64,000 bases of DNA from a bacterium (GTDB lineage: Bacteria > Electryoneota > Electryoneia > Electryoneales > Electryoneaceae), in contig JAHLLH010000007.1 of assembly GCA_020444265.1 (NCBI GenBank), forward strand, positions 62,001-126,000, given 5' to 3'. Within the stretch, counting starts at the first letter, position 1. Each line of letters begins with the position of its first letter. Below are positions 2,036 to 41,992 of the stretch, piece by piece. Position numbers and translations under genes: made by a program. Under the pieces are notes generated by a model that worked only from the letters and a program-made list of their open reading frames with translations, had not been told where the DNA came from and did no database searches.

Positions 2036-2140
2036 CAAATAAATTGAGGGCTGAACGTTTCCGCTCAGCCCTCAATGTGACGTATTGCCGTCACAGGAAA
2101 TTCGGTGCTAGCTCAGTCGCGCATCGGACGTCATTGCTGT
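2036..2140 (-). ncRNA. Putative sigma-54-dependent small RNA, about 105 nt
   Basis: No gene is annotated here. On the minus strand a near-consensus sigma-54 promoter at 2167-2151 predicts a start at 2140 (an A). The transcript would contain a stem TGTGACG/CGTCACA with a 6-nt loop (2095-2076) and then the 11-bp terminator stem with a U-rich tail, ending near 2036. The only short frame, an 8-codon ATG...TAG at 2135, has no ribosome site. Palindromic sites suitable for an enhancer-binding protein lie 116-170 nt upstream of the start, and the gene immediately upstream encodes such a protein. Known analogues are GlmY/GlmZ, Qrr and CrcZ, which are sigma-54-driven RNAs. Existence and length are predictions; targets are unknown. 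Confidence 0.6.
2044..2075 (-). terminator. Intrinsic terminator of the putative small RNA
   Basis: Perfect 11-bp stem, TTGAGGGCTGA at 2044-2054 pairing with TCAGCCCTCAA at 2065-2075, with a 10-nt loop. On the minus strand the stem is followed at once by TTTATTTG, so it terminates leftward transcription. It could also serve the rightward phosphatase gene as a bidirectional hairpin, although the plus-strand side has no T tract. Confidence 0.75.
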
Positions 2141-2150
2141 CCTATACTAA

Positions 2151-2167
2151 AGCAAGCGACGGGCCAG
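2151..2167 (-). promoter_or_regulatory. rpoN-dependent promoter: Sigma-54 (-24/-12) promoter of the small RNA
   Basis: Minus-strand sequence CTGGCCCGTCGCTTGCT. Against the consensus YTGGCACG-N4-TTGCW it differs at one position (C for A in the -24 box). The invariant GG and GC are exactly 10 nt apart. It points left into the hairpin-terminated segment and has no protein-coding gene downstream before the convergent phosphatase gene. Confidence 0.7.
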
Positions 2168-2255: not shown

Positions 2256-2310
2256 TGTAACAAAAGTGACAGTAGTGTCACACCTTCACGTGTAATGTTA
2301 CAGTGTAACA
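2256..2310. promoter_or_regulatory. Palindromic activator sites upstream of the small RNA
   Basis: A 55-bp run of related half-sites: TGTAACA at 2256-2262; a perfect palindrome GTGACA-GTAG-TGTCAC at 2266-2281; and TGTTACA-G-TGTAACA at 2296-2310, also perfect. They sit at about -116 to -170 from the predicted start at 2140, the usual place for enhancer sites of NtrC-family activators. The GTGACA-N4-TGTCAC form recurs at 5424-5439 ahead of the neighbouring activator gene, which suggests one protein binds both. The sites end only 5 bp after the activator's stop codon. Confidence 0.6.
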
Positions 2311-2314
2311 GGCG

Positions 2315-5300
2315 TCAGCTTTCATGTCGTTCAAGCTTCATGCTTGCCATCTTCCTGTACAATGTTTGACGTGCAATCCCGAGTTCGCGAGCGGCACGGG
2401 CCACTACCCAACCATGCTTGTCAAGAGCGTGAAGAATCCGGTCACGTTCTGTTGGCGCAGGTTGCGTTGAGGAGACAGTGGTGGACGTTTTATCGGCATC
2501 CGGTGTGGAGGTGGAACTTGCATTACGAATCTCAGGAGGCAGGTGTTCAAACCGGATGGTTTTGTCACGAGTCACAATGACGGCTCGTTCGAGACAGTTT
2601 CGCAACTCACGAATATTTCCTGGCCAGGAGTATTGCATCAGGTGGGACAGCACATCTTCGCTGATCTCCTCGATCTCTTTTCCCGCCTGCTTGGAAATGG
2701 TCTGCAAGAGATCTGTAATCAGAAGGGGGATGTCATCACGTCTCTCGCGCAAGGGTGGAATCTCGATCGCCAGGACATTGATCCTGTAGTAGAGGTCCTC
2801 ACGGAATCGCCCCGCCTGCACCTCGTCCGTCATGACACGATTTGTGGCAATCAGAATACGAGTATCGACCGATATCGGGGTTGTGTCACCAACTCGTTCA
2901 ATCACCTTGTCATTGAGGACACGTAACAGCTTCACCTGGATGGCAGGGGACACTTCTCCAAATTCATCAAGGAAGAGGGTTCCTCCTTCTGCCCGTTCGA
3001 AATAGCCCACCTTGTCGCGTACCGCACCAGTAAACGAACCTTTTACATGTCCGAACAATTCACTTTCGAGCAACGTTTCTGTCAGAGCAGCGCAATGTAC
3101 CGCGACAAAGGGTCCAGTGACGCGATGGCTCTGGTGGTGGAGCGCGCGCGCGACCAGTTCTTTTCCGGTTCCGCTTTCACCGGTGATCAGAACAGTTGCA
3201 TCACTCGGCCCGATGTGTTCAATCATCGAGTAGATCTGACGCATACGTTCAGATTGACCAATCAGGTTATGGAAGCGAAACCGGGTCTGCATCAGATCTT
3301 CCAGACGCATCAGCTGGGTCTCATCACGGAAAATGACCAATCGTTCAGTGGATGCTTTGCCAAGGTGAAGCAGGGGGTTCATGCGTAGACGCACCATCTT
3401 GGTTTCGTCATGCAGTGTTGATAATTCAACCTGCGTATCCGAGACCGATGATCGGTTTTTTTCACTCGTCAGGAGTCGCGCCAGCACATCGCGCTGCTGG
3501 GGAAAGAGGTCCAGCAGGGCCATGCCGGGAACCTCTTCGTGATCCAGTTGGAAAAGCTCACCGAAGCTGAGGTTCGCACGTGTAATGATTCCTTCGCGGT
3601 CCAAGGTGATCAGGCCATCCAGAACACTGTTGAAAATGGCATCCAGGTGCTCTCGCTGAAAGGAAAGCTCCTCGTTCATCCGTCGTCGTTCTTCACTCTC
3701 CGTTTCCAGCTTCTGATTGGTTACAGCAAGCTGTTCGGAACGATGCAGAAACCGTTCTCGAAGCCGACGATAGGCGCGCATCAGGCGACTGCGAGCGTCA
3801 CGCCGGGCTTGACGAACCCGAAGCGTCGCGTAGAGGCTGAGCATCAGGAAATGGGGCAGAAGAAGGAGGATGGACAGCCAGAGATAAGGTCTAAATCGCC
3901 AGTAGGGATCAGGGTTTTGATCAAGCGAGTAGAAAGTCAGCACACCCCGGGCGTCCAGAATGGGAAGGTAGGGTTCCGATCCCTCAAATCCGGGGTGAAC
4001 AACCGAGACAAATGGGGCCAGAGAACCGGGCAGGTAGGCTTTCACCGTACCTGTTTCATCTAACATCCGAATGCCACCGTCCACCGCTTCGAGAGGAAAT
4101 AACCAGCTCTCTGAATTCGCCCAGATCGCCTGGCGAGCTCCAGCCGCCCACCCGGCCAGCTTGCCATCATACTGGGTAGCCTGCCAGAAATCATGTTCTT
4201 GTAGAATGTGCAAGCTGTCTGCGTGGGTGAGCATTCCGGCAGGGACTGCGGAGGTGGGCTGTGCGTGGACGAATCGGGTGAACTCCATATTATCGTGGGT
4301 TCGAAACTGAAGAATCGTGCCATCCTGGGTATAAATCTGGAAAAAAGAAACGATGGATGCAGCTTCTCTTTCCAACGGCTTACGGATATGGACGGCAAAC
4401 AGGGTGTCGCCACTGGAAGGAAAAGCGTACACCTCACCAGGAGCAGGCGGGAAAGAGCGGACCCAGCGAATAATGCCATCACCACTGATTTCCATCAAGG
4501 TGGCGCGTGCACCGGAAAGCAGGGTGTTCTGCACTCCCCCATCCGGTGCGATCACCTGGATGGGCAGCAGGATGGAAGGATTATCCGGACGACCACCGAA
4601 CAGGAAAACTTCTTCACCACGACGACTGCGCTTCCAATATCCCAGCCCGGGATGATTGGCGATGTCAACACGTGCAACCAACTCAGGTGTGCGTGTCCGA
4701 TTGAAAAAGAGGAGTCGGTGTACCATCGCGGCGTCGAGATCAGCGGTATAGTAGGCAACGAAACGGTTGATACCGCTGGAAGAGGGACACCCACCGGGGG
4801 TAGTAGGGAGGCTATAACCCGCAGACCATCGTTTAGCTTCCGCCGGACGAATCTGTCGGTCGAGCAGGATTTCCACACCATCAGCGATTTGAGCGCAGAA
4901 ATGAAGACTGTCAACCCCTGACAGGGAATGCCAGACCTTTGTGTAGACGAGGTCGAGCAACTGATCGTCGTCTACATCCACCGCTGCAACCGATGAATCG
5001 GGCACATTTTCAGGAAGCGACCATTGCTGGATAGGGTTGAACTGGCCATCAAGGATGATCACCTCAAGGGCGCCATCCACATTCATCAGCTGAACGGTTT
5101 CAAGACCTTCGACGGGCAGGTAATTGCCGGAAGGGAGGAACCGGCTGCCAGGTGGGAAGGAGGCGACTTCTGTCCCAACCAATGGATAGGTGCTTTGATC
5201 GTCAGGATCGGCATGCCGCAGCTTGTCTCGAAAGAAAAAGAGAGAAACTGCCTGCATAAGAAGGACAGTTATCGCCAGCAGAGTCATATCGTGAAACATG

Positions 5301-5344
5301 GTCCGCACGTAGGACCGTTTTACCTGTCTTTCCAGCATCGGCAT
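2315..5344 (-). CDS. Membrane-anchored sigma-54-dependent activator with extracytoplasmic propeller-like sensor
   Basis: About 1009 residues. An N-terminal membrane segment (near 20-40) is followed by some 430 residues outside the cytoplasm with propeller/FG-GAP-like elements (for example VDVDDDQLLDLVY near 125), a second membrane segment (near 487-508), a basic coiled coil (510-565), a PAS domain (about 565-670), a sigma-54 AAA+ domain (Walker A GESGTGKE near 724; GSFTGA loop; LFLDEFGEV Walker B) and a Fis-type helix-turn-helix at the C-terminus. There is no receiver domain, so it looks like a one-component transmembrane regulator. The open frame begins at GTG 5350, but ATG 5344 has GGAAG five bases upstream and is preferred. 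The GAFTGA loop reads GSFTGA, a tolerated variant. The same palindrome occurs on both sides of the gene. Confidence 0.9.
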   Translation of the reverse strand: MPMLERQVKRSYVRTMFHDMTLLAITVLLMQAVSLFFFRDKLRHADPDDQSTYPLVGTEVASFPPGSRFLPSGNYLPVEGLETVQLMNVDGALEVIILDGQFNPIQQWSLPENVPDSSVAAVDVDDDQLLDLVYTKVWHSLSGVDSLHFCAQIADGVEILLDRQIRPAEAKRWSAGYSLPTTPGGCPSSSGINRFVAYYTADLDAAMVHRLLFFNRTRTPELVARVDIANHPGLGYWKRSRRGEEVFLFGGRPDNPSILLPIQVIAPDGGVQNTLLSGARATLMEISGDGIIRWVRSFPPAPGEVYAFPSSGDTLFAVHIRKPLEREAASIVSFFQIYTQDGTILQFRTHDNMEFTRFVHAQPTSAVPAGMLTHADSLHILQEHDFWQATQYDGKLAGWAAGARQAIWANSESWLFPLEAVDGGIRMLDETGTVKAYLPGSLAPFVSVVHPGFEGSEPYLPILDARGVLTFYSLDQNPDPYWRFRPYLWLSILLLLPHFLMLSLYATLRVRQARRDARSRLMRAYRRLRERFLHRSEQLAVTNQKLETESEERRRMNEELSFQREHLDAIFNSVLDGLITLDREGIITRANLSFGELFQLDHEEVPGMALLDLFPQQRDVLARLLTSEKNRSSVSDTQVELSTLHDETKMVRLRMNPLLHLGKASTERLVIFRDETQLMRLEDLMQTRFRFHNLIGQSERMRQIYSMIEHIGPSDATVLITGESGTGKELVARALHHQSHRVTGPFVAVHCAALTETLLESELFGHVKGSFTGAVRDKVGYFERAEGGTLFLDEFGEVSPAIQVKLLRVLNDKVIERVGDTTPISVDTRILIATNRVMTDEVQAGRFREDLYYRINVLAIEIPPLRERRDDIPLLITDLLQTISKQAGKEIEEISEDVLSHLMQYSWPGNIRELRNCLERAVIVTRDKTIRFEHLPPEIRNASSTSTPDADKTSTTVSSTQPAPTERDRILHALDKHGWVVARAARELGIARQTLYRKMASMKLERHES

Positions 5345-5422
5345 GGACACTTCCTGTCACAATCGCAAGTGGCTGTAAAATGGGATAAAACATCGTCCAC
5401 ATGCAATTTGTGAATCCGACGA

Positions 5423-5448
5423 TGTGACACTTCTGTCACGATGTGACA
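5423..5448. promoter_or_regulatory. Operator palindromes upstream of the sigma-54 activator gene
   Basis: TGTGACA-CTTC-TGTCAC at 5423-5439 is followed by another TGTGACA at 5442-5448. A degenerate third site, TGTGACA then TGTCC on the minus strand, overlaps the start codon around 5345-5361. The core palindrome GTGACA-N4-TGTCAC is the same as at 2266-2281. No -24/-12 promoter with correct spacing was found ahead of the gene (a candidate has an 11-nt gap), so the sites may repress or otherwise autoregulate a sigma-70 promoter. Confidence 0.55.
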
Positions 5449-5474: not shown

Positions 5475-5503
5475 AAAAAAGGACCGGGATTTCCCGGTCC
5501 TTC
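5475..5503 (-). terminator. Intrinsic terminator after rpoD
   Basis: GGACCGGG at 5481-5488 pairs with CCCGGTCC at 5493-5500 around a 4-nt loop. On the minus strand the stem is followed by six T residues (5480-5475). It lies 27 bases past the rpoD stop codon. Confidence 0.9.
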
Positions 5504-5526
5504 TAACAAAGTCACTCAGAGCACAA

Positions 5527-9882: not shown

Positions 9883-10785
9883 TCAGCCAAATGTCACAAG
9901 TACCGCTCCGAGCACTCCGAGCAGAATGCCCGCGACACGGACCAGGTTGACCGGTTCACGCAGCAGGAGGACGGCGAGCAGAAAAATGAAGAGGTTGGCA
10001 GTCTGGTTGAGGACGGTTGCTGTTGAAGCGAGGGCGTGCTTCAGACCGCCAATCAGCAACAACAGGGCGATGTAGGTGCCCAGCAGCGAACCGGGGATCA
10101 TGAATTTGAGGCCGCGACGGTCCACCAGGCCGGAAAGAAGGACCGCACGGTCTTTCCGGATCGCAATCAGGGGCAACAGGAAGAAGAGGCCGCCGGCCAG
10201 GCGCATCTGGGTCGCCCAGACCACCGGCACTTCGTTGAGCACTGGTTTCACCATCACCACGCTGGCGGCCATTGTTACCATCCCAATCAGCAGGTAGGCG
10301 CTCCCTAACAACAGGTCTTTACGGTTAACGGTACCGCCATTACGGAACCCGGCACGGCCTGTTACCATCAGCACCGCGCCGAGGATCAGGACGACGCCGA
10401 GCCACTGGACGAGGGTGAGCCGCTCCCCGAGCAGGATCATCGACAGGCCGATGACAATCGGGGCGTACAAGGTGGTGATAATCGAAAAAAGCCCAGCCCC
10501 GACACGATTCAGTCCCATGAAATGGAAGGTGTCTGACACCCCCATCCCGAGAAAACCGGAAGCGAGCAGGATGACGTAGGTTCGTGTATCGGCACTATGT
10601 AGCAGCGGCTGACCCAGAATCAACAGGGTCGGCGGATAGAGCAGCAGGGCAAGCACATTTTTAAAGAGATTCAGCGAGATCGGATGGACCGTCTCACCCG
10701 ATTTTTTGAAGAGAATGACCCCGAACGCCCAGGCGAGGGCGGAGCCGAGAGCAAGCGTTTCCCCGAGGTAGGTAAAGTCTGTCAT
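9883..10785 (-). CDS. EamA/DMT-family permease (copy 1)
   Basis: 300 residues, ten predicted membrane helices made of two EamA repeats (about 7-140 and 155-298). The repeat signatures are seen as WAFGVILFKKSGETVHPISLNLFKN and later LNQTANLFIFLLAVLLLREPVNLVR. DMT permeases export or take up amino acids, nucleotides or drugs; the substrate cannot be read from sequence. GAGGGACA precedes the ATG. It starts 13 bases after the stop of copy 2, so the two form an operon. Confidence 0.9.
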   Translation of the reverse strand: MTDFTYLGETLALGSALAWAFGVILFKKSGETVHPISLNLFKNVLALLLYPPTLLILGQPLLHSADTRTYVILLASGFLGMGVSDTFHFMGLNRVGAGLFSIITTLYAPIVIGLSMILLGERLTLVQWLGVVLILGAVLMVTGRAGFRNGGTVNRKDLLLGSAYLLIGMVTMAASVVMVKPVLNEVPVVWATQMRLAGGLFFLLPLIAIRKDRAVLLSGLVDRRGLKFMIPGSLLGTYIALLLLIGGLKHALASTATVLNQTANLFIFLLAVLLLREPVNLVRVAGILLGVLGAVLVTFG

Positions 10786-10798
10786 TTAGTGTCCCTCA

Positions 10799-11707
10799 TC
10801 ACGGCTTGACCCCGGTGAAGGTCACCAGTGCTACTCCTGCCAGACCGAATACGAGGCCGAGGAGACGTTTCCATGTCACCGGTTCTTTCAAAAGCCAGGC
10901 GGCCAGCACGAAGGTCCAGAGGGTGCTGGTCTGGTTAAGGGCGGAAGCGGTGGAGGCCTGGGTGTACTTCATCCCCGCCAGCCAGAACATCAGGGAAACG
11001 TACGAGCCCATCAACGCTGCCGGGATCATCACCTTCCAGACTTTTCTATTTCCCAGCGCACGCAGTTTCGTCTTCCATTGTGGCATCAAGGGGGTCAACA
11101 GCAGGCTCATCCCGACCCCGCCGATCAAACGCCATGAATTCGCCCAGATCAGGGGAGAATCGTCCAGCATCGGTTTGATCATCACAATCGAAACCGCTTG
11201 GGTGAAGGCAGCGGTCATCCCAAGCAGGACCCCCGCAACCAGCACACGCGGCGCAAACTCACCTCCCGGCCCCTTCATTTTGCTGACAGAAAGGACAGCA
11301 GTCAGGATCAGGCCCACGCCAATAAATTGCGGGATGGTCAGCCGTTCCCCGAGGAAAACGATGCTGAGCATGATGATCGAGGGGCTGTAGAAGGTGTTGA
11401 TGATCGACTGCAGGCCGGCACCGACACGGTTCAGCGTCATGAAGAAAAGCACATCCGAAATGCCGATTCCGATCGCGCCCGAGGCGATCAGCAACCACTT
11501 GTCGTTCATCGACACCGCATGATCCGGCTGCCCGCCGAAGATCCAGAGGGTGCCGAAAAACATGATCAGCGCGAGGATGTTTTTGAAGAGGTTGAGCGCA
11601 AGCGGTGGGACCGATTCGCCGGTGACACGGAAAAGGATGACCGCCACCGACCAGCAGAGCGGTGCGGCGAGAGCAAACAGTTCACCGATGTAGGGGATGG
11701 TGCCCAC
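10799..11707 (-). CDS. EamA/DMT-family permease (copy 2)
   Basis: 302 residues, ten helices, same two-repeat plan as its neighbours: WSVAVILFRVTGESVPPLALNLFKN in the first half and LNQTSTLWTFVLAAWLLKEPVTW in the second. Starts with GTG, with GGAG seven bases upstream. Sequence similarity to copies 1 and 3 extends over the full length, so the three arose by duplication. Substrate unknown. It is the first gene of a two-gene unit with copy 1. Confidence 0.9.
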   Translation of the reverse strand: MGTIPYIGELFALAAPLCWSVAVILFRVTGESVPPLALNLFKNILALIMFFGTLWIFGGQPDHAVSMNDKWLLIASGAIGIGISDVLFFMTLNRVGAGLQSIINTFYSPSIIMLSIVFLGERLTIPQFIGVGLILTAVLSVSKMKGPGGEFAPRVLVAGVLLGMTAAFTQAVSIVMIKPMLDDSPLIWANSWRLIGGVGMSLLLTPLMPQWKTKLRALGNRKVWKVMIPAALMGSYVSLMFWLAGMKYTQASTASALNQTSTLWTFVLAAWLLKEPVTWKRLLGLVFGLAGVALVTFTGVKP

Positions 11708-11802
11708 TCACTGCTCCTACCTGAAAGGTTGTGCATCCCGGGGAAAGGCGAAGATACGGCTTGGATGGGTCCGGGTCCAAAAGCGGGAGCAATTGGCAGG
11801 GT

Positions 11803-12213
11803 GGCCCGGGCAGTCCCCTGCCCGGGTCTCATTCCCTTCAGTCCGCCCCCTACCACGTCATTGCGAGGACCGTAGCGCAGCGAAGGGACGTGGCAATCTG
11901 CCCCTGAAACGGTGTTGACAGACACCGATGCCACGTCGCACTGGTGGGGGCTGCCGCCCCCAATTCAAGAGCAGATTGCTTCGCTTTGCTTGCAATGACG
12001 GGTAGCCAGATGGGCTGACAAACATTCCTCGCGCTCTGTCATCCCCAGCGCACAAGCCTGCGTCAGCAGGCTGAGCGTTTGTCGTTGTGCGCGTCGGGGA
12101 TCCCCTTGAGTGAGGGACAAAGCTTTGACTCAGCGCCGCAGGGGACCCCCGACGCAACAAGGTTCCCTTCGGTCACAACGGGGTTGGCACCCTGTTTGTT
12201 GCTGGGGGTGACA
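11803..12213. repeat. Repeat cluster: three palindromic elements
   Basis: The 531-base gap between permease genes 2 and 3 has no gene. It holds a GGCCCGGGCA/TGCCCGGGTC hairpin (11803-11831); an element bounded by CGTCATTGCGAGG (11856) and its inverted partner ending TTGCAATGACG (12000), 145 bp, of a type common in many bacterial genomes; and a 177-bp element (12037-12213) with inverted ends TGTCATCCCCAGCG / GCTGGGGGTGACA and an inner GTCGGGGATCCCC. Copies of each occur elsewhere in the window. Confidence 0.85.
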
Positions 12214-12238
12214 GATGTCCAGGATGTCCGTGCCACCA

Positions 12239-13147
12239 CTAGCCAAAGGTCACAAGCAAAGCCCCACCGACAGCAAGCAGAATCGCAATCCAACGCCGTC
12301 CGGTGAGAGGTTCGCTCAAGAAAAGACCTGCCAGCAGGAAGGTGAAGATGGTACTCGTCTGGTTGAGGGCGGAGGCCGCAGAAGCCGTCGTGTACTTCAT
12401 TCCACCGAGCCAGGTGATCAACACCAGGTAGGCGCCGACAATCGAACCGAGGATGGTATAGCGTCTGCTACCCTGGAGACGCAGGGTGCGCAACACCCGC
12501 GCACGATTCGGATGAAAAAGCAGCACCAGCAGAAGGACCGCGATCCCACCGACGAGACGCCATTCGACGACCCACAAGAGCGGCTGTTCCTCGAGAATCT
12601 CTTTGATCATCACCAGTCCGACTGCCATCAGGAAATTCGAGACGATGGCCCAGAAGACACCCCAGACAAAGGTTTTTCGTTCGAGGGTGTGGGCGTGACG
12701 TTCCACCGTTGCGACCAGGATCGCCATGACAATGATCCCGGCCCCGAGGGTCTGGAAGCTGTTGAGACGCTCCCCGAGGAAGAGGAACGAGAGGTAGATG
12801 ACAAAGGGTGAATAGGAGGCTTCCACTACCGCCATACGCCCCGCACCAATCTTGTTCAGGCTGGCGAAAAAGACCGAGTCGGCGATCCCGATCCCAATGG
12901 CACCGCTAGCGATGACGAGGAGGTAGTCACGCCAGGGCAACCCATTAAAAAAGGGGGTTCCGAGCAGGAGCATGGTGGGGATCAGTAGCAGGAATGCAAC
13001 GCTGTTCTTGAAGAGGTTGAGGGCGATAGGGGCGGTGCGCTCACCGCTCTTTTTAAACAGTATCACCCCGAACCCCCAGAGAATGGCGGTCAGGAGCGAA
13101 AGGCTTTCACCGAAGTATGGAAATGGGATGTTCATCTGTATGTCCAC
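12239..13147 (-). CDS. EamA/DMT-family permease (copy 3)
   Basis: 302 residues, ten helices, with the paralogue signatures WGFGVILFKKSGERTAPIAL and LNQTSTIFTFLLAGLFLSEPLTG. The frame starts at GTG 13147; ATG 13135 is an alternative start but lacks a ribosome site, whereas GCAGG precedes the GTG. It ends with the same LLVTFG C-terminus as copy 1. It is separated from copies 1 and 2 by repeats and was probably once contiguous with them. Substrate unknown. Confidence 0.88.
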   Translation of the reverse strand: MDIQMNIPFPYFGESLSLLTAILWGFGVILFKKSGERTAPIALNLFKNSVAFLLLIPTMLLLGTPFFNGLPWRDYLLVIASGAIGIGIADSVFFASLNKIGAGRMAVVEASYSPFVIYLSFLFLGERLNSFQTLGAGIIVMAILVATVERHAHTLERKTFVWGVFWAIVSNFLMAVGLVMIKEILEEQPLLWVVEWRLVGGIAVLLLVLLFHPNRARVLRTLRLQGSRRYTILGSIVGAYLVLITWLGGMKYTTASAASALNQTSTIFTFLLAGLFLSEPLTGRRWIAILLAVGGALLVTFG

Positions 13148-29981: not shown

Positions 29982-32900
29982 ATGGTTAAGAAAGTCGCGT
30001 TCCTCGCTGCTGCATTCCTGCTGATTATCCTGCCTGCCTACGGTGACATGACCGATGCAGAGAAACAGGACTTTCTACAAAAGGTCGAAGCGGCACAAAC
30101 AGCACGTGCAAATAACATGGATCTTACGCGGGAACAGGCTCTGCTGCTGCGTCAGGTGGGAGAAAGCCAACGACCGCGTGAAATTGACGAACTGGGCGGC
30201 CCCGACGAGTTTGGATACTTCTACGTTGACAGCAACGAAGAAGAGGGCCCGATTTATGAATGGGTCGAAATCCGACCCGATATGGAAGGAGAAGGAACCG
30301 GACTCGGCTTGAGTGATGATGGTGAGTCAGGATTTATCCCGATGCCAGACGGATGGAGCTTCTCTTTCTATGGTGTCGATTACAATCAATTTGTTGTCAG
30401 CCCAAATGGTTGGGTCAGTTTCATTGATGAAAATGGCGGCTTGAGCGGCACCATTCCCAGCCCCTTCACTCCCAACGCTACCCTCGCACCCTACTGGCGT
30501 GACCTCGACCCCGGCGACTCCGACGAAGAGGATGCCTGGTACTGGTTTGACGAAGAAAATCAGATCATCGTCATTCAGTGGTTCACGGGCAACTTCAACG
30601 GCCCGATGAACAACGCCAAATCTTTCGAAGTCATTCTTGATATTACCGAGAACAGCGCCCTCTACCAGTATGATACCTCCGATGAGGGCTGGGCAGCCGA
30701 TACGGGTGCAACCATCGGTGTGGAAAACGAAGAAGGCACCATCGGTCTCACCTATGACCGCGCTTCCCTGACCGACGAATTGGCCATCCTGTGGTACCTC
30801 GGAGAAGGTGATGCAAATGTCTCCGGCACAGTCTTCGATGGCGATACCCACATGCCAGTCGCGGATGCAGTGGTTCAGTTTGGTTTCAACTCGACAACAA
30901 CCAACTCCGTGGGCGAGTTCTCCCTCGAAGGTATTTTCAGTGCCCAGTACAATCTGGAAGTCTTTGCGCAAGGCTATGTGACCTACGCAGAAGCGGTTAC
31001 CGTTGAAGAAGGGGAGAACACCTTCAACATCCTCGTTGACCAGGCTCAGCCGGTCGGCGACATCTTCGACTTCGAAGAGGGGCCTGCCGGGTTTACTGCC
31101 GCAGGCGGTGCGTTTGAGCACGGATCGCCCGGTGCCGGACCGATGTCGGCATACTCCGGGTCCAATGTCTGGGCAACGTACCTGAATAGTGATTACCAGG
31201 ACTCGGACGATGCGACGCTCACCTCACCGACCATCACGCTGAACGGCAACGGGATAGGGCTTGGTTTCTGGGCCTGGTGGGAATACGAGAACGGGTGGGA
31301 CGGCTTCCACGTCCTCGTCTCGAATGATGGTGGAACGTCTTGGGATCTGGTTGTTCCGGATAACGGCTACAATGACGATTCGGTTGTAGGGCTGGATAAC
31401 CAGGCTGGGTTCACCCAGACCTCAAACGGCTGGGAGTACCTCTTCTTTGACCTGAGTGACTACAATGGCGATGAAATTCAGATCCGGTTCCGTCATGGGT
31501 CCGACTCCATCATTTCCGGCTACTATGGTGTTGCCATTGACGATCTTGCCCTGTTTGGCTCGCGTCAATTCGGCTCGCTGACGGGGTTCATCTCCTACTT
31601 TGATACCGGCCAGCTTGTCAACGCGGCCACTGTGATTCTCTATCCCTCTGGATCCGATGAAATTTTGATGGAAGCGACAACCGAATCGGACGGTATTTAT
31701 TTCTTCCCTTACCTCCAAACGGGAAGCTACCGACTGGCAGTCACCTCTCCTGGGTACGAGATCTTTATCATTGATCCACTTGAAATTACGGAGGGGTTGC
31801 CTGTTGTCGAAAACATCCAGTTGCATCCAAGTGAAGCGACGGTGCAGTTCAGCGGGACGGTGGTCTCCGCCGATCTGCCGGAAACATTAGTCGCCGGGGC
31901 GACAGTACAGGTGCCCGGTCTTGAACTTGAAGCGGTAACGGATGAAAACGGTGCCTTTGATTTCGGGATGCAACCGGAGGGGATCTACGCCATTACCCTC
32001 ACCCACGATCCTGTTGGGTCGGGTGGGTACCACAACATCCATTACCGTGGTGTGGTGGTCAACGATGCTGGTGTACCGCTCGAACTGATCATGTACAACA
32101 TCCTGCCGCCGGAAACCCTCGAAGGAACCGTTGGCAACGGCCATGTTCAACTAAGTTGGGGAGCACCGGTCAACGCCATGACCGGGATGCAATTGCGGGA
32201 ACGTGAACAGCAATTGCAGGACGTTCTCGATCGCATCGCGGCGAGTGGTTCGGAGCATGACCTCGCAAAAGCGAGTCGCTACGAGCGCGAATTGCGGCTT
32301 GTCCAGACAGAACTCCACCGTCGTGAAGAGGCGGTTTTGGACAACGAGCTGGACGAACTCCAAGATTTCCAGGGCTACAGGATTGAAGTCGATGGCGAGG
32401 TGCTGCCGGTGGTGATTGCTGGCACATCCTACGACCTGCTCGACCTGCAGAACGGACACCTCTATACGATCCGTGTCGCTGCGGATTATGGCTACGATGA
32501 GTCAACGCTGGTCTTCAGCAACGAGATCCACGTACGTCCTCTTCCGATGGATGAAATTCCGTACGCCATCCTCGAAGAATTTGAGTGGATTGAAATCAAT
32601 CCGGCCAACGATGGCGACGGCACCCCGTTGAACCTGACCGACGATGGTCCTTCCCCGTTTATCAGCATGGGGAACTTGAGCTTCAGCCACTACGGAAACG
32701 TCTTCAGTGAATTTTGTGTCTCCCCGAACGGCTGGATGAGCTTCAGCGACGCTGGCTTCGATCTCTGGCCGAACCTGCCGGATACATTTGGTCCGTTCAA
32801 TCAGGTCGTGCTGTACGGACGTGATCAGGATCCGGGTGATAGCGAAGAAGAGGATGTTTACTACCTCGTGGACGAGGCGGAAGAGCTGGTTGTTATCCAA

Positions 32901-35900
32901 TGGCACACCGGTAGCTATCCTGGTCCGACCAACCAGATCCGTACCTACCAGCTCGTGCTGGATTGTGCAATGAACCAGTATTTCTTCAACTACCAGTCGG
33001 CCACAGAAGGCTGGGAAGCAGAGATAACAGTTGGCATGCAGAACGAGGATGGTACTGCCGCCTCGATTATGCCAAGCGTCGATATTGCAGATGAAACCAC
33101 CGTCTTCTGGGCACCTGTCACCAACTTCGGAAATGTGACCGGAACTGTACGAGACGCTGATACGGACGAGGCGATGGAAGGAGTCCGTGTTCGTGTCCAA
33201 GGTGCGCCGCAATACACCGCCTTCACAGATGAAACAGGGGCCTATGAGCTCCTGCTGATCAACCGTGACCTGGCGCCACTGAACCTCGTCTTCCAAGCGA
33301 CCGGGTACGAACAGGAAGTGGTCGAAGCGGTTGAATGGGAAGGTGAAAACTTTGATGTCGTAGCCGATGCCCTCCTCACCCATGTCAGCCCGGAAAGCCC
33401 GCCTGAATTTGGTGGCTATGATGGCGATTTTGATGATCAGGTTGAGGTGATTCTGCGTGAGCCGGGCTCCTTCGAGGGCCTCGACATGATCGGTCCGGAT
33501 GATGGGTCGATCGGCAATGCCTATGGCAGCTCCGAACTAGCTACAGCAGGTACCTGGGCGGTTCCGCTGGTCACACGACAAGGCCATCTCATCCAGGTCG
33601 AGCTGCGTCTCGCGGCAGAAAACGAGCCCTACTTGCCGAGGACGGTCAATGGTTCGTCAACCGTTCAGGTCAGCATCCTTGCAGATGAGGGTGGTGTGCC
33701 TGGCGACGTGTTGTATACCAGTGAACCAGTTCAGCAGGGACGTGTCATCTTGAATCCCGACCTGCAGATCGCGGGTCCGACCTGGGTCACGGCAGATGGC
33801 GGCGCAATCTGTGTGGATCAATTGGCAGATGCGACCTCCGGGTTTGCCTGGCAGCCCGATGCTTCGGCACCCTGGCTGAGGATGACTACAACAGGCGACC
33901 CGATTGTCCGCGCCATCGTCGAGTCACCCAGGACCGCGTCCCGTGCCTACGAGTCCGGTAGCGAGATGTTGGAAGGTTTGGCAGATCTGAACCAGACCCG
34001 TGGGGCAAGTCGTCCGATCAGCGCCCTTGAAACCTCGCCGGTTTATGGCCGTTTGCCGGTCGGCACTGCGCCGCGTGCAGCCATTGCAGTCCCCGTTCCT
34101 GCCAGTTTGGATGAACTCGACGAGATCACCTTCCTTGGCTATGATGTTTACGCGTCCAGCGATGGCGGCGAAACGTATACCCAGCAAAATGCGTCGTTGA
34201 TCGAAGAGAACAACTTCATTGTCACCTTCGGCAGCGACTTTGAGCAGCTTGAAATGCTGGTCTATGCCGTTGCTCATGTTGACGATTCCGACCTGGGTGA
34301 AGTGGTCTCGGAGCCCTCCGATACGATGTCGGTGTACTTCGAAATGGCGCCGGCAACCCCGGCTGGTCTCCAGGTTGAGTTGGGTGAAGAGGAGGATGTC
34401 TACACCGCTGAACTCTCCTGGAGTGCGGTGACCACCAATGCGGATGGTTCCGATTGTGTGGACCTGGATGGCTACACAATTTACCGTGATGGCGAGGTGA
34501 TTGGGTCGGTTGAAGCCGGCGTGACAAGCTTCTCCGACGATCCGCCCAACGATGGTTTCTTTGCCTATTCGGTGCAGGCGTTTGACGATGCACCCGAGCC
34601 CAATGCCAGTGGCATGTCGATGCCAGAAACCATGTATGTCGGACCGACAGGCTTCTTCAGCGACCTTGAAGGTGGCTCGGGTGATTTCTTCGGCGATGAT
34701 CGCTGGCAGTATGGTGAGCCCATGTCACCCCCGGGGACTTTCTCCGGCGCGAATGTTCTGGCAACCAACCTGACCGGGAACTACGACAACAACGACTACA
34801 ACGTCCTGACGTGGGATCAGCTCTGGGCGGTTGAGGGCCCCTCGCAGCTCGTCTACCAGCACTACATCAACTACGAGTTCGGTTGGGATGGTTACCGGGT
34901 GGACATCTCCACCGATGAAGGCGAAACCTGGGAATTGCTGGTGCCAGAAGGAGGCTACCCGGATGATGCGGTGAACGGCATCGACAATGGTCCTGGTTTT
35001 ACCGGTTCCAGCGGAGAATGGCAGCAGGTTGTCTTCCAGCTTGGTGACTATTCCGGTGAAACCGTCAGGTTCCGTTTCCTGCATGGTACAGACAGTAGTG
35101 TGAACGGTTACTACGGTGTGGCGATCGACGATATCTACCTGCTGGGTGGCGCGGGCTTCCCGGACTTCGGGTCGATCTCTGGTGTCATCTGGTCCTGCGA
35201 GGCTGGTGTTGTGCCGGTCAACGGTGTGGCGATTCGCCTCGGCGATTCCGACCGGATTCGTGGCTATTCAAGCTTTGACGGCAGCTTTATGATCGACTCG
35301 GTCCTGGTTGGCAGCTGGGATATCCACTTCTGGCATGATGCCTACTGGCCGATGGATTATGAGGGGATTACTGTCACCCTCGACGAAAACCACGATATGG
35401 GTGACATGGAAATGATGCAGCCGGATGGCAGCGTCAACCGTACCACCCTCGAGATGTACGTCTCAATTGGCGAAGGAATGGATTCCACCGCCTCCGCTTC
35501 GATTGAGTTGACCAGCGATGGCTGCGGTCTGCTCGACTGGTCGGCCTGGCTCGAACTGAATGCCCCGATGGTGAGCGTGCGGAATCGTGGAGAATCCTAC
35601 CATCGCGCGACAGCACCGCCTGTTGCCAAGCGGGAGGACCCCTCCACCTGGCGTGGTCCGATTGCCGGGATGGACGAGATTGACGCACTGTGGGACAGCC
35701 TCTTCAGCTTTGATCCAACTCAGGAAGCGCTCTATGAGGGGATCATTGCGGCGGCAACCACCTCCACAGGTATCTACGCCATTGACCAGGATGCGGCCGA
35801 GTTCGCCCAGTTCACCCTCGAAGGCGACTACGTCGACTCCGAGTTCATTCCGAACCAGATGCTTGACACGAACGGAAACCCACCGAAAGATCTTGCGATT

Positions 35901-36896
35901 GATCCAAACATCGGTGGGTTCTACGCGGGCAACGGGGATGGCGACCTCTTCTACTTCAGTGAATCGCTGACCGGCGTAACCCCGGTTGGCAATGTTGGTA
36001 TCCCGGTGGTCGGCATCGCCTATGATTTCGTCGAGAACAAGCTTTATACCTACGGAGTCAACGATTTCCGCCGGTATGACATGCTGAGTGGTGACACCGA
36101 AATCTTGATTCCGAACGGTTCGCTGGGGACAGTGACCGGCCTTGCCTACATGGCCTCCGACCCGGATGGCTACACCATCTGGATCCTCCGTGAGACCGCA
36201 ACAGGCGCGAAGACGGCTCGCTACAACCCGACTACCGGCTTGTACGACATGAACAACGATGCACTCTACCCAAGTGGTGATGGTTCACCCGGCGGTATGG
36301 AAATATCCAGCGCCTACAGCACGACTTTCTACGACATCACCACCGCGCTGAACCGTGACACCGGCAACGACCAGATCGACATCTGGGAAGGCATGTCTAC
36401 CGTGCCGCCATGGATTCACATCGATGGTGCCAATGCGGGAGAACTTGAACCGGGCAACTCGGTGACGATTAACCTGGTTGCCGACCTGCGCGGAACACGT
36501 CTCGATGTCGAACCGGGCATGGAGCTGGAAGTGGTGCTCTATTTCGATGGTCCGTTCTGGGGCAACCCGCCAGCAGTCTTTATCCCGGTCACCTTGACCG
36601 ACCAGGCGGTCGGCGAGGAAGAAGGTTTGCCCACGAAATATGCGCTGCACCAGAACTACCCGAACCCCTTCAATCCAGCGACACGGATCAAGTTTGACCT
36701 GATCCAGGCGCAGCATGTCAAGCTCGCGGTCTACAATGTGCTGGGTCGTGAGGTAGCGCGTCTTGTCGATGGCAAGATGGAACCGGGTTTCCATGCGATC
36801 GAGTTTGATGCGGCTCGTTTCGCGAGCGGTGTCTATTTCTACCGTCTCGAGAGCGACGCCTTCACCTCGATGAAGAAGATGGTGTTGGTGAAGTAG
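29982..36896 (+). CDS. Giant multidomain T9SS-secreted surface protein
   Basis: 2304 residues. Signal peptide (1-22). Two copies of a domain with VSPNGW and DPGDSEEED (about 95-273 and 865-1043); two MAM/jelly-roll-like domains (about 362-527 and 1560-1723) with WDGFHVLVSNDGGTSWDLVVP and GYYGVAIDDL; five carboxypeptidase-regulatory-like domains, typically VSGTVFDGDTHMPVADAVV; FN3-like domains, one (708-853) interrupted by a charged helical insert (733-788); a propeller-like region (about 1907-2140); and a type A sorting domain at the end (YPNPFNPATRIKFDL ... GVYFYRLESDAFTSMKKMVLVK). It should be exported across the outer membrane by T9SS, the sorting domain being removed. No catalytic motif seen; likely adhesive or structural. 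Confidence 0.88.
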   Translation: MVKKVAFLAAAFLLIILPAYGDMTDAEKQDFLQKVEAAQTARANNMDLTREQALLLRQVGESQRPREIDELGGPDEFGYFYVDSNEEEGPIYEWVEIRPDMEGEGTGLGLSDDGESGFIPMPDGWSFSFYGVDYNQFVVSPNGWVSFIDENGGLSGTIPSPFTPNATLAPYWRDLDPGDSDEEDAWYWFDEENQIIVIQWFTGNFNGPMNNAKSFEVILDITENSALYQYDTSDEGWAADTGATIGVENEEGTIGLTYDRASLTDELAILWYLGEGDANVSGTVFDGDTHMPVADAVVQFGFNSTTTNSVGEFSLEGIFSAQYNLEVFAQGYVTYAEAVTVEEGENTFNILVDQAQPVGDIFDFEEGPAGFTAAGGAFEHGSPGAGPMSAYSGSNVWATYLNSDYQDSDDATLTSPTITLNGNGIGLGFWAWWEYENGWDGFHVLVSNDGGTSWDLVVPDNGYNDDSVVGLDNQAGFTQTSNGWEYLFFDLSDYNGDEIQIRFRHGSDSIISGYYGVAIDDLALFGSRQFGSLTGFISYFDTGQLVNAATVILYPSGSDEILMEATTESDGIYFFPYLQTGSYRLAVTSPGYEIFIIDPLEITEGLPVVENIQLHPSEATVQFSGTVVSADLPETLVAGATVQVPGLELEAVTDENGAFDFGMQPEGIYAITLTHDPVGSGGYHNIHYRGVVVNDAGVPLELIMYNILPPETLEGTVGNGHVQLSWGAPVNAMTGMQLREREQQLQDVLDRIAASGSEHDLAKASRYERELRLVQTELHRREEAVLDNELDELQDFQGYRIEVDGEVLPVVIAGTSYDLLDLQNGHLYTIRVAADYGYDESTLVFSNEIHVRPLPMDEIPYAILEEFEWIEINPANDGDGTPLNLTDDGPSPFISMGNLSFSHYGNVFSEFCVSPNGWMSFSDAGFDLWPNLPDTFGPFNQVVLYGRDQDPGDSEEEDVYYLVDEAEELVVIQWHTGSYPGPTNQIRTYQLVLDCAMNQYFFNYQSATEGWEAEITVGMQNEDGTAASIMPSVDIADETTVFWAPVTNFGNVTGTVRDADTDEAMEGVRVRVQGAPQYTAFTDETGAYELLLINRDLAPLNLVFQATGYEQEVVEAVEWEGENFDVVADALLTHVSPESPPEFGGYDGDFDDQVEVILREPGSFEGLDMIGPDDGSIGNAYGSSELATAGTWAVPLVTRQGHLIQVELRLAAENEPYLPRTVNGSSTVQVSILADEGGVPGDVLYTSEPVQQGRVILNPDLQIAGPTWVTADGGAICVDQLADATSGFAWQPDASAPWLRMTTTGDPIVRAIVESPRTASRAYESGSEMLEGLADLNQTRGASRPISALETSPVYGRLPVGTAPRAAIAVPVPASLDELDEITFLGYDVYASSDGGETYTQQNASLIEENNFIVTFGSDFEQLEMLVYAVAHVDDSDLGEVVSEPSDTMSVYFEMAPATPAGLQVELGEEEDVYTAELSWSAVTTNADGSDCVDLDGYTIYRDGEVIGSVEAGVTSFSDDPPNDGFFAYSVQAFDDAPEPNASGMSMPETMYVGPTGFFSDLEGGSGDFFGDDRWQYGEPMSPPGTFSGANVLATNLTGNYDNNDYNVLTWDQLWAVEGPSQLVYQHYINYEFGWDGYRVDISTDEGETWELLVPEGGYPDDAVNGIDNGPGFTGSSGEWQQVVFQLGDYSGETVRFRFLHGTDSSVNGYYGVAIDDIYLLGGAGFPDFGSISGVIWSCEAGVVPVNGVAIRLGDSDRIRGYSSFDGSFMIDSVLVGSWDIHFWHDAYWPMDYEGITVTLDENHDMGDMEMMQPDGSVNRTTLEMYVSIGEGMDSTASASIELTSDGCGLLDWSAWLELNAPMVSVRNRGESYHRATAPPVAKREDPSTWRGPIAGMDEIDALWDSLFSFDPTQEALYEGIIAAATTSTGIYAIDQDAAEFAQFTLEGDYVDSEFIPNQMLDTNGNPPKDLAIDPNIGGFYAGNGDGDLFYFSESLTGVTPVGNVGIPVVGIAYDFVENKLYTYGVNDFRRYDMLSGDTEILIPNGSLGTVTGLAYMASDPDGYTIWILRETATGAKTARYNPTTGLYDMNNDALYPSGDGSPGGMEISSAYSTTFYDITTALNRDTGNDQIDIWEGMSTVPPWIHIDGANAGELEPGNSVTINLVADLRGTRLDVEPGMELEVVLYFDGPFWGNPPAVFIPVTLTDQAVGEEEGLPTKYALHQNYPNPFNPATRIKFDLIQAQHVKLAVYNVLGREVARLVDGKMEPGFHAIEFDAARFASGVYFYRLESDAFTSMKKMVLVK

Positions 36897-36923
36897 AAAT
36901 CGGGACATATCTGATGTATTCCA

Positions 36924-36949
36924 GGGGCTGCTTTGGCAGCCCCTTTTTT
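36924..36949 (+). terminator. Intrinsic terminator after the giant cargo gene
   Basis: GGGGCTGC-TTTG-GCAGCCCC followed by six T residues; textbook form, 27 bases past the stop. Confidence 0.95.
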
Positions 36950-37293
36950 GTTGCTTAGTATAGATGGCTACTCACCAGGGCATGCCCCCCTGCAGAACTA
37001 CCTCCGCCCAAACCTGCACCACCCACTTGAACCTTCCTGAATCTGCTCCCCACCCGTGAGACCGCCGTGCGATGAGAGTCAGGAGAGCCGGAACGGAGGC
37101 AAATCCGGGAAAGGTTCGAGCTTTCACTTAAGGTTTTCGCCCGTTCAACCGATGAAAGAGATGAGCCAAAGCTCGTATCGACGACCCGCGACTCCCAGAG
37201 GACAGCGGTAAAAGTGTCCGAAGATGACGAGGAAAAGCTGGAAGGTGACCGGAAATCAGCGTTTTCGTCAGATGATGGAAAAACGAAAAACGC

Positions 37294-37388
37294 AAAAAAA
37301 CTCCGTCTCTTTTAGCCGAGACCTTGTAAGATTGGAGTCGATTAAATAGCTTGTCGGAAGCAAGGGCTCTTCCTACAAGCAGCAGTTA
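37294..37388 (-). ncRNA. Candidate structured small RNA, minus strand
   Basis: On the minus strand an extended -10 (TGCTATTTC, ending 37395) predicts a start near 37388. Then follow a hairpin at 37380-37349 (GCTTGTAGGAAG with CTTCCGACAAGC, 11 of 12 pairs), a short AU-rich linker, and a second structure at 37335-37301 (ACTCC/GGAGT plus GTCTC/GAGAC with an 11-nt bulge) followed directly by seven T residues. This is the layout of a small RNA of about 95 nt ending in an intrinsic terminator. No ribosome site or frame lies inside. The bulged terminator stem is the weak point. Confidence 0.4.
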
Positions 37389-37394
37389 TTTCGG

Positions 37395-37459
37395 GAAATA
37401 GCAGAATTCGGGATTTATCTGTGACGGGGGTCACAGAATCGGCCAAAGCTGATATTATT
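37395..37459. promoter_or_regulatory. CRP/FNR-like site between divergent extended -10 promoters
   Basis: TGTGA-CGGGGG-TCACA at 37420-37435 is a perfect match to the CRP-family half-site arrangement TGTGA-N6-TCACA. To its right, TGATATTAT (37451-37459) is an extended -10 pointing to the 1389-residue cargo gene at 37606; to its left, TGCTATTTC (minus strand, 37403-37395) points to the candidate RNA. Both put the site centre about 39-41 bases from the predicted start, where class II activators bind. No crp gene is in the window. Confidence 0.5.
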
Positions 37460-37605
37460 GTCAGTTTTTGGTGATTACGTCCCTGGATAGGTCCCTCCTG
37501 AATTCGCCCACGCAATAACCCATTCGGGCCTGCTTTCCAGACAGGCTCGTGTCGGGGTTTTGACTGTATACAGGAAGAGATTGAACCCATAAGCGGGAGA
37601 GAGCC

Positions 37606-40600
37606 ATGAAGAAAAAGTTCGTAGGTATCCAGGTTCTTGTGTTCCTGCTGGCCTTCGTCTTCGTCACGGGAGTTGCCCTGGCGGATGACCGGAGTTCACC
37701 AGTAGTGAATACGGACGCCTCTTGGCCGTTCACCTTTGGTGAGGACGGTGAGGCGGACGCGGCAGTCTATGGGCGTGTTATTGGCGCCGATGACTACGAT
37801 TTCGCTGGACAGACAGTCAGCAGTTCCCAGCGAGTCCCCGTCCTCTTCTCCCTCGTTCCTTCCACAGGCACGGTCAACGAGACCAATTTCAGTGGTGGCG
37901 CAGCAAGTAACTTTGATACGTATGCCGCTGTATTCCCGCTTGCAAGCGGGAATTATGCATGGATTGGGCGCAAGGAAGTGTCCGCCGGTGTAGAATCACG
38001 CGGGTCGATCTTTGTCCGCACGAGCTCCGGCGGTCATGTGACGTACAACCACACCTTTGGTTCTGCGAGTACGTTGACCCGTTTCAACGCGGGTATGCAG
38101 ATCAGCGGTGGCACCTATGATGGCAGCATCGTTGCGGCCGGTTTCTCGACTCAGTCGGGGAATGCTGGTGCGGGCGATATTCGTCTGCAGCGCACGAATG
38201 CTTCCGACCCACTCGCCTCACAGGCCGCCGGTTTCCTTGGTGGTGTGAACGCAGAAGAGGCTTTCGCGGTCATCCAGTTGTCCAGCACCCTCGGCGCTGT
38301 TGCTGGGTATCAGGATGATGGAGCAGGCGACCACGCGTTTTACGTTGCCCCCTTCAACTTCAGCGACATGACCTTGAGTGCCACATGGACGCTTGGCTCG
38401 ATCACCGCCGATGGTGACGACGATGTCATCCGTGACATGATTCTCGATGGCAACGGCGACCTGATCATCGTCGGTACGGCTGGTACCTCCGGTTCGACCA
38501 CCGGTTTTGTCGCGAAGGTCGATACTGCAGATGGTTCGGTCGACTATGAGTGGACCACGACCGCAACCGACATCGAGTTCTACGACGCCGATCTGATGAG
38601 TGATGGCGATATCGTCATTACCGGTCGTAGCGGTGAAGATCTTTATTTGATCGAAGTTCAGGACAGCGGCACCGAGTTCACCCAGGACTGGGCGAACACC
38701 TATGATTCCAGTGCAGATGGCGACATCGGGTACTGGGTCGAGGAGCAGGCCGACAATTCGATCGTCGTAACTGGTGTTGCGGACGATGCTTCCTCCACGA
38801 ACGCGGTTTTCTGGCTGTTTGACCAGCCCGCCCTCACCGTCTACCCGGCGGCGATTTCCTACACCAGCCCGGCTGATGCAGCAACCCAGCAGGACACTGC
38901 TGGTGTGACGCTCACATGGGCCAACGGCGGCACAGGTGGTGGTGAAGATGCCACGACGAACGTTGACATCTATTTTGATGAGAACGCCACCCCGACAGCC
39001 CTCGTGGTTGACGACGATGCCATCACGACAACGACCTACGCGACTGGGTCGCTTGATCCCGGCACAACCTACTACTGGTATGCTGTCGCGCGTGACGCGG
39101 ATGGCGACGAGACAGAAGGTGCAGTCCAGAGCTTCACGACGCTCAACCCGCCGAACACTCCGAGCCTGACCTCGCCGGCGGATGCTGCTGTGGACCAGGA
39201 CTCCACGGATGTCACCATTCAGTGGGCAGATGGATCGGGTACAGGTGATGCGGCAGCCACGTATGACCTCTTCTTCGACACCAACGCGACCCCGACCACC
39301 AAGGTCGTGGATGATGCGGCACAAACCAGCTACAGCACCGGTGCTATAACCGGTGGTGCGACCTACTACTGGTATGTGGTTGCACGCGATGCCGATGGTG
39401 ATGTTACATCGAGTGCGATTCGTTCCTTCACCGTCCAGGAGCCGGCGAATGTCGTCTATGTCTCGATCGACTCCGATGTCGCGTCGACCTACTACGACAA
39501 CGACAATATCGCTGGCTTCCATGAGTTGGCCGACGACGCGTACGATGATTACGATACCCCGGAACCGCCAGCCTTTGGCGCGGGTTACATCCGGACGTAC
39601 ATCTCGGAATCCGGCTTCAGCTCACCCTTCGATCAGCTGACCGAAGATTATCGTGACTGGACCGGCAAGACCTTCGGGACAACCCCGTACCTCTTCGACA
39701 TTACCACCGTGACCGACCAGGATGGCCTGGTGTCCTACACGGTGGATGTGACGAATGGTAACGGTAACGATTGGCCGGTTGCCTGGTGGGATGGCGCGGA
39801 CTTCCAGAACATGAATGGTGCGTCCGACGAGGATAACACCTTTAGCTACACTGCGGATGCAACCGGTGGTGGCGGTACAGACACCGATAACTACGCAATT
39901 CTTATCGGTGACACCACCGCACCAGTCGTCACTGAAGTTTTCCCGGTTTCGGGTGGAACCTCTGAAATTCAGCGTAACGATGCCAATGCGACGCTGGAAG
40001 TCAGCTTCGATGACACCGCTCCAATCCGTCAGGTTCTGGTCTACTTCTCGCCGTCGGACGACAGCAACAGCCCGCGTGAGAACTGGACCGAGCTGACCAA
40101 CAGCCCGATGACCTACGATGGTTCGACCAACGGTAGCCCGGATGATCCGACGGATGGTGTGACCAACGCCAACCTGACGCTTCCCTGGGTGCCCTATGTC
40201 GACGATAACGCTCTGTTCAGCTCACCCAGTGACCTCTTCCCGGCAGCGCAGATGCGCTTCATCTCGGAAGACTGGATGGGCAACAAGGACACCACCTACG
40301 TCGACTTCGCGATTACCCCGGATGAGTTCGATTATACGGGTGACTTCGGCGCTGGCTGGCATCTGATCTCGGTTCCGATGGATCCGGATGAGGATCTGGC
40401 AGACGACATGTTCACCACTGCTACCGGCGACGATAACGGTATTGCTGGTGACTTCACAGCGTTTGAATACTCAGCTTCCGGTGGTTACGAGCAGCCGACC
40501 GTGATGGCCATCGCCAAGGGCTATTGGCTCGTCCTCGATAGTGACAACACCGCAGCAGCGGTCAATGCTGGTCTTGGTACGATCCTCGGCACCATTGCCG

Positions 40601-41775: not shown

Positions 41776-41797
41776 GCCATTGATGTAAGCTATCCCT

Positions 41798-41841
41798 CCC
41801 TCTCCGGGTGCTGTCGCAGGCACCCGGAGAGGGTTATTTTT
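41798..41841 (+). terminator. Intrinsic terminator between the two large cargo genes
   Basis: CCCTCTCCGGGTGC/GCACCCGGAGAGGG, 14-bp perfect stem with 8-nt loop, followed by TTATTTTT. Confidence 0.95.
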
Positions 41842-41992
41842 GACTGGTGGTCCACGTGATGCAAGGGCACGTAGCGACCGTCCCACTTCCTTCTGTGGTG
41901 AACAGCCGTGTGCGGACGTAGGAACCCGTTCCCGGCAGCACACCACCCCGATATGACCTCTCCCTGCGCAAGACTGTTCCGAGGGGACCTAC

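Follow-up and report, generated by a model that had tools for sequence, protein, structure and literature searches.

The locus described here raises the question of how a sigma-54 activator could work from within the membrane. Activation at sigma-54 promoters is normally pictured as the action of a cytosolic AAA+ ring, which reaches RNA polymerase by DNA looping. In the window (the whole stretch of 64,000 nucleotides analysed in this study), a single gene encodes two predicted transmembrane (TM) segments with a large sensor region between them, followed in the same chain by a coiled coil, a PAS domain, a sigma-54 AAA+ domain and a Fis-type helix-turn-helix (HTH) domain (Table 1). The ATG start is preceded by an AGGA-type ribosome site at 7–8 nt, and an in-frame GTG at 5350 is a possible alternative start. 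The AAA+ domain continues into an AAA lid at residues 866–949 (Pfam, E 2e-29), and the alignment showed intact Walker A (GESGTGKE), GSFTGA, Walker B (LFLDEFGE) and sensor I (ATNR) motifs. The contact loop has GSFTGA in place of GAFTGA, a form that was found in 20 of 88 readable activators and is also present in DVU3220, a Desulfovibrio activator with assigned targets (PMC4641369). The genome of the host, an uncultured bacterium, carries one rpoN gene for sigma-54 (PF04552, E 3.1e-51). With Walker A/B motifs and a GAFTGA-type loop in the AAA+ domain, a C-terminal Fis-type HTH and sigma-54 in the host, the window protein has the sequence features of NtrC-family bacterial enhancer-binding proteins, and the presence of predicted TM regions together with HTH_8 in one chain is that of a transmembrane transcription regulator. 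The identity as a hybrid two-component system (HTCS) was considered and rejected because no HisKA/HATPase or receiver domain was found in the chain by Pfam.

Table 1. Features of the activator locus in the window, with the second membrane-anchored activator of the host genome in the last line.
Feature	Position	Strand	Residues	Basis and remarks
Membrane-anchored sigma-54 activator gene	2315..5344	(-)	1009 aa	Single open frame; ATG 5344, stop 2315-2317
TM1	5231..5287	(-)	20-38	Hydropathy, strong hydrophobic segment
Predicted extracytoplasmic sensor, propeller suspected	3890..5212	(-)	45-485	Profile family of 10 copies
DVDDD calcium-loop motif	4964..4978	(-)	123-127	D123 invariant, D127 nearly; weak FG-GAP_3 match
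TM2	3821..3886	(-)	about 487-508	Hydropathy, strong hydrophobic segment
Signalling coiled coil	3659..3811	(-)	about 512-562	Kept among relatives; coiled-coil matches in PDB search
PAS domain	3323..3652	(-)	565-674	Pfam E 1.2e-10
Sigma-54 AAA+ domain (Sigma54_activat, PF00158)	2765..3265	(-)	694-860	Pfam E 6.8e-67
GSFTGA sigma-54 contact loop	3023..3040	(-)	769-774	Alignment
Fis-type HTH (HTH_8)	2345..2455	(-)	964-1000	Pfam E 2.9e-13
Terminator between sigma-70 gene and activator gene	5477..5504	(-)		Terminator prediction
Dyad TGTCACATCGTGACA, candidate activator site 5' of own gene	5434..5448	(-)		One of two genome-wide pattern matches
Dyad TGTTACACTGTAACA, candidate enhancer 3' of gene	2296..2310	(-)		Other genome-wide pattern match, just past stop
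Inverted repeat GTGACACTACTGTCAC, second candidate site	2266..2281	(-)		Inverted repeat
-24/-12 (sigma-54) promoter-like site TGGCCCGTCGCTTGCT	2151..2166	(-)		Best match in window, near-consensus
Candidate short transcript	2043..2140	(-)		Intrinsic terminator 2076-2043 at end; fold z -5.9, mostly terminator
Second membrane-anchored activator	L134:7577-11497 (G000:C2)	(-)	1306 aa	Reg_prop repeats, Y_Y_Y, TM, PAS, AAA+, HTH_8

The orientation of the protein in the membrane was predicted from the charges around its hydrophobic segments. Basic residues flank both TM1 and TM2 on the cytoplasmic side, and the basic tail before TM1 together with the basic stretch after TM2 (RVRQARRDARSRLMRAYRRLRER) suggested that both ends of the protein are cytoplasmic and that residues 45–485 lie outside. 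Independent support for export came from versions of the sensor that are fused to histidine kinases. Two of them (L133 and L136) have lipobox-like signal peptides at the start, with LNGC and LTGC as the last residues, which would place the sensor outside the inner membrane, and the sensor domain of the window protein is likewise predicted to be exported. The anchoring of a sigma-54 activator in the membrane, as claimed in the first-pass annotation, is supported by topology, homologs and motifs, and the topology and homologs also support its proposal of a probable extracytoplasmic sensor.

The same architecture was searched for in other genomes, as the first-pass annotation had proposed, and the succession of sensor, TM2, coiled coil, AAA+ and HTH was found in five relatives (G005, G006, G026, G031 and G033). 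These proteins are 990–1062 aa long with the domains in the same order, and PAS was detected by Pfam in four of the five, the exception being G006. Because these independently assembled genomes keep the fused order, the window frame does not represent two genes, and the two-gene reading or a frameshift artefact, which the earlier annotation had named as the outcome that would overturn it, was excluded. The complete motifs and the fused order in relatives together support an activator made as one chain. The AAA+ domain of the G005 protein is very divergent and its loop reads GSFTNA.

Full-length copies of the sensor numbered 10, all within one small phylum (39 genomes from three families, searched with profiles built from the relatives), and the profile search of 347 genomes outside this phylum gave no full-length sensor. 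The matches outside the phylum were essentially to the coiled coil alone, and no sigma-54 activator was found among those inspected. In G001, G003, G004 and G013 the sensor is fused to a histidine kinase instead. The G001 gene (L128:4732-8948, (-)) carries the sensor on a PAS histidine kinase and overlaps a gene whose product, an NtrC-type response regulator, contains receiver, AAA+ and HTH domains; the pair corresponds to a two-component version of the system in the window. The kinase with its regulator and the fused activator therefore look like alternative outputs of one sensor, and the same input appears to be wired either to a two-component pair or straight to an activator.

The host genome was also examined for other activators, and 27 sigma-54 activator-like matches were found, leaving out one match to PAS alone. 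Only one of the 22 other host activators with motifs readable by a simple pattern has a convincing TM segment. The view of the first-pass annotation that membrane activators are unusual therefore held within this genome, but transmembrane transcription regulators in general are widespread, with 50,302 recorded in one survey (PMC10269533). In a survey of Clostridiales, TM regions were absent from most activator regulatory domains (PMC6615313). The second membrane activator of the host has a GAFTSA loop, its gene lies between genes for proteins sorted by the T9SS, and its C-terminal half is 41–43% identical to that of the window protein. In the AAA+ tree it groups with the proteins of G026, G031 and G033 (98/96), and the place of the window protein was not fixed by this tree. 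The shared C-terminal half suggests one TM2–coiled coil–PAS–AAA+–HTH chassis that could carry different sensors. A single origin of the membrane activators was considered and set aside, as the AAA+ tree needs three changes, though one origin may still hold. In addition, a chain from Schlesneria (Planctomycetes; L042:3946-7200, (+)) combines a polytopic membrane region of about eight hydrophobic segments with a weak match to GAF, a sigma-54 AAA+ domain and HTH_8, and represents an unrelated membrane activator; membrane-embedded activators are thus not limited to the phylum of the sensor. Altered contact loops were also seen in eight host activators (L003, L004, L007, L016, L018, L021, L017 and L023), with GAFTDA in six, GAYTDA in one and GAFTGG in one.

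The genes around the activator were assigned by eye. Upstream lie genes for a sigma-70 factor and an HtrA-type protease, separated from the activator gene by a terminator, and on the other side a cysQ-like gene is found together with one for glutamine synthetase. The sensor genes of the relatives adjoin genes for T9SS-sorted secreted proteins, three of which have LVIVD repeats, one of these beside a kinase version. By our own count a T9SS neighbour is present at six of eight loci, an association that is only suggestive, given the 106 to over 150 T9SS-type genes in each of these genomes; it gives mild support to a link between the sensor genes and surface-protein expression. The host genome itself has at least 150 T9SS-type C-terminal tails. 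Elsewhere in the window, positions 29982-46378 (+) encode very large secreted proteins (2304, 1389 and 1461 aa) whose C-termini resemble T9SS-type tails when read by eye, and positions 9883-13147 (-) hold three consecutive EamA/DMT-like transporter genes of about 300 aa each (by eye), an apparent tandem duplication.

Both flanks of the activator gene contain inverted repeats that are candidate sites for its HTH domain. The start codon is preceded at a distance of about 90 bp by the dyad TGTCACATCGTGACA, and the stop codon is followed by TGTTACACTGTAACA and GTGACACTACTGTCAC. The last of these could alternatively be a weak terminator for the mRNA of the activator. The pattern TGTYACN3GTRACA has exactly two matches in the 4.33 Mb genome, both within 3.2 kb at the activator gene, and the reversed control has none. 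As the pattern was derived from the two flanks of this gene, and chance alone would give about one exact match genome-wide, the uniqueness of the dyads supports a function but does not prove it. Dyads with one mismatch numbered 20 as compared with 13 in the control, which is little or no excess, and no -24/-12 motif was found near those inspected; a wider regulon defined by such dyads was accordingly rejected.

The promoter-like site TGGCCCGTCGCTTGCT is located 149 bp past the activator stop codon and about 107–137 bp downstream of the dyads, which is the usual enhancer distance for sigma-54 promoters. With all neighbourhoods scored alike, four of seven membrane activators are followed on the same strand by a comparably strong -24/-12 site no more than 250 bp downstream, as against two such sites at other positions over 416 kb of strand (P about 7e-11 relative to the local background). 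This value is only a guide because the downstream region was chosen after the first cases had been seen. No strong downstream site is present in the other three, namely G031, G033 and the second membrane activator of the host. In G026 a perfect -24/-12 site stands about 33 bp before a TonB/AgmX-like gene that is followed by a VWA gene, and in G006 overlapping TGTCC/GGACA dyads precede the -24/-12 promoter, which itself precedes the gene for a T9SS-sorted TolB-like protein. In G005 (L126:10882 (+) onwards) the site lies 21 bp past the activator stop and leads into about 290 nt with a terminator-like hairpin; the only frame read by eye in this stretch has 44 codons, and the stretch is possibly another short transcript. 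The window's own promoter-like site leads to no protein gene and runs into the terminator at 2076-2043, so the predicted product is a transcript of about 100 nt. This candidate matched no Rfam family and had no DNA match in 40 other genomes, and the possibility of a conserved small RNA was rejected on these grounds.

Considering the domains, their conservation and the sites around the gene, we regard the window protein as probably a membrane-tethered one-component sigma-54 activator (bacterial enhancer-binding protein) of a local target. In the mechanism that we propose, a periplasmic signal such as a ligand, the Ca2+ state or a surface-protein partner would change the sensor dimer, and this change would be relayed through TM2, the coiled coil and PAS to the AAA+ domain without the involvement of phosphoryl transfer. 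The AAA+ domain would form a ring at the membrane, and HTH dimers would hold the TGTYAC-N3-GTRACA dyads on both sides of the activator gene. The activator could then control its own gene and switch on the sigma-54 promoter just behind it. In relatives the output would be a protein of the envelope or a secreted one of the T9SS, and in the window it would be the short terminated transcript. A bolder form of this scheme, which we hold only tentatively and with more doubt than belief, is that the tethered AAA+ activator grips the flanks of its own gene and so holds the locus at the inner membrane, where a periplasmic signal would remodel RNA polymerase directly and without a phosphorelay; the candidate phylum would use it to switch on neighbouring surface-protein genes, and here a small RNA.

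The local DNA sites could instead be coincidental. The 2076-2043 hairpin would then simply end the activator mRNA, the -24/-12 match would fall within the 3' part of this mRNA and the true targets would lie elsewhere. This fits a dyad pattern that was chosen after the flanks had been read and of which a chance match was expected in the genome, and it fits a promoter that leads to no gene; we nevertheless consider it unlikely, since both exact matches in the genome flank the activator gene, no other promoter match in the window scores as high and three relatives have a -24/-12 site in a like place. A different course of events, in which the protein does not act from the membrane, is that the periplasmic signal causes cleavage near TM2 and the freed coiled coil–PAS–AAA+–HTH part reaches distant promoters, as in regulated intramembrane proteolysis. 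The released half would be an ordinary soluble activator, and the HtrA-type protease gene is situated two genes upstream on the same strand. However, a strong terminator separates the HtrA and sigma-70 genes from the activator gene, and no HtrA gene was seen beside the genes of the relatives when their neighbours were inspected without a profile search. The juxtamembrane coiled coil and PAS are moreover the linker type of the kinase-fused relatives, which signal without cleavage, and the adjacent candidate target suits a tethered protein, all of which makes release from the membrane improbable.

Tethered activation leaves room for more than one fold of the sensor, which in the window protein has ~445 residues, is β-rich and belongs to no Pfam family of its own. 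In the alignment of 10 members P54, D123, W294 and G342 do not vary, D127 and G290 hardly vary, and the segment D123–D127 looks like a calcium loop of the FG-GAP type. We lean towards a beta-propeller, as an expectation and not a result. The DxDxDG calcium loop (DVDDD, the only such loop in the window sensor), FG-GAP_3 matches in three of the 10 members (in the window protein a single one at residues 90–133, below the Pfam cut-off) and the matches of the sensor part in a PDB profile search, which were all weak and mostly to WD40, NHL and FG-GAP propellers, point in this direction. Against this, none of the Pfam propeller families reached the cut-off in the sensor, the best internal self-match in the self-repeat search (an offset of 48 residues) was not significant, and AlphaFold run on the single sequence without an alignment gave a poor model (pLDDT 36). 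Another beta-rich fold, whose stimulus may be envelope stress or a protein partner and not a small ligand, is accordingly a lesser but substantial possibility.

Compared with known systems, the window protein shares with the NtrC-family enhancer-binding proteins the AAA+ domain with GxFTGA loop, the Fis-type HTH and, by sequence, dyads about 100–140 bp upstream of a -24/-12 site, but its regulatory part is a predicted exported domain between two TM helices, whereas the NtrC family has a receiver, GAF or other cytosolic domain. With the transmembrane transcription regulators ToxR, CadC, TcpP and TfoS it has in common that sensing and DNA binding are combined in one membrane-anchored, one-component chain. 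These classic regulators have winged-helix or other simple HTH domains and work with ordinary RNA polymerase; unlike them, the window protein has an AAA+ remodeller, which at the membrane would need both to assemble and to cooperate with sigma-54. With its large beta-rich sensor on the periplasmic side and its DNA-binding output anchored in the membrane, the window protein recalls the Bacteroides HTCS (Reg_prop/Y_Y_Y), and the second membrane activator has both Reg_prop and Y_Y_Y, but the window protein itself has no kinase, receiver, Reg_prop or Y_Y_Y and its output is a sigma-54 activator. The nearest documented precedent that we found is Rsp of Neisseria gonorrhoeae, a fusion of the PilS receptor to the DNA-binding part of PilR that represses pilA (PMC10269533). 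Rsp likewise joins the membrane sensor of a kinase to part of an NtrC-type regulator; it is reported as a repressor, whereas the window protein has complete AAA+ motifs and rpoN is present in its genome. No published membrane-anchored sigma-54 activator with an exported sensor was found in the literature searched, an absence that is weak evidence given incomplete coverage.

A motif-complete activator carried on two TM helices would put to the test whether the formation of an AAA+ ring and a DNA loop is possible at the membrane. In neighbouring species the sensor is attached either to a histidine kinase or to an activator, which amounts to a natural experiment in the turning of a two-component pathway into one protein, and the sensor is a large domain outside the existing Pfam families. 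The dyads and promoter-like sites lie locally, which makes the system directly testable.
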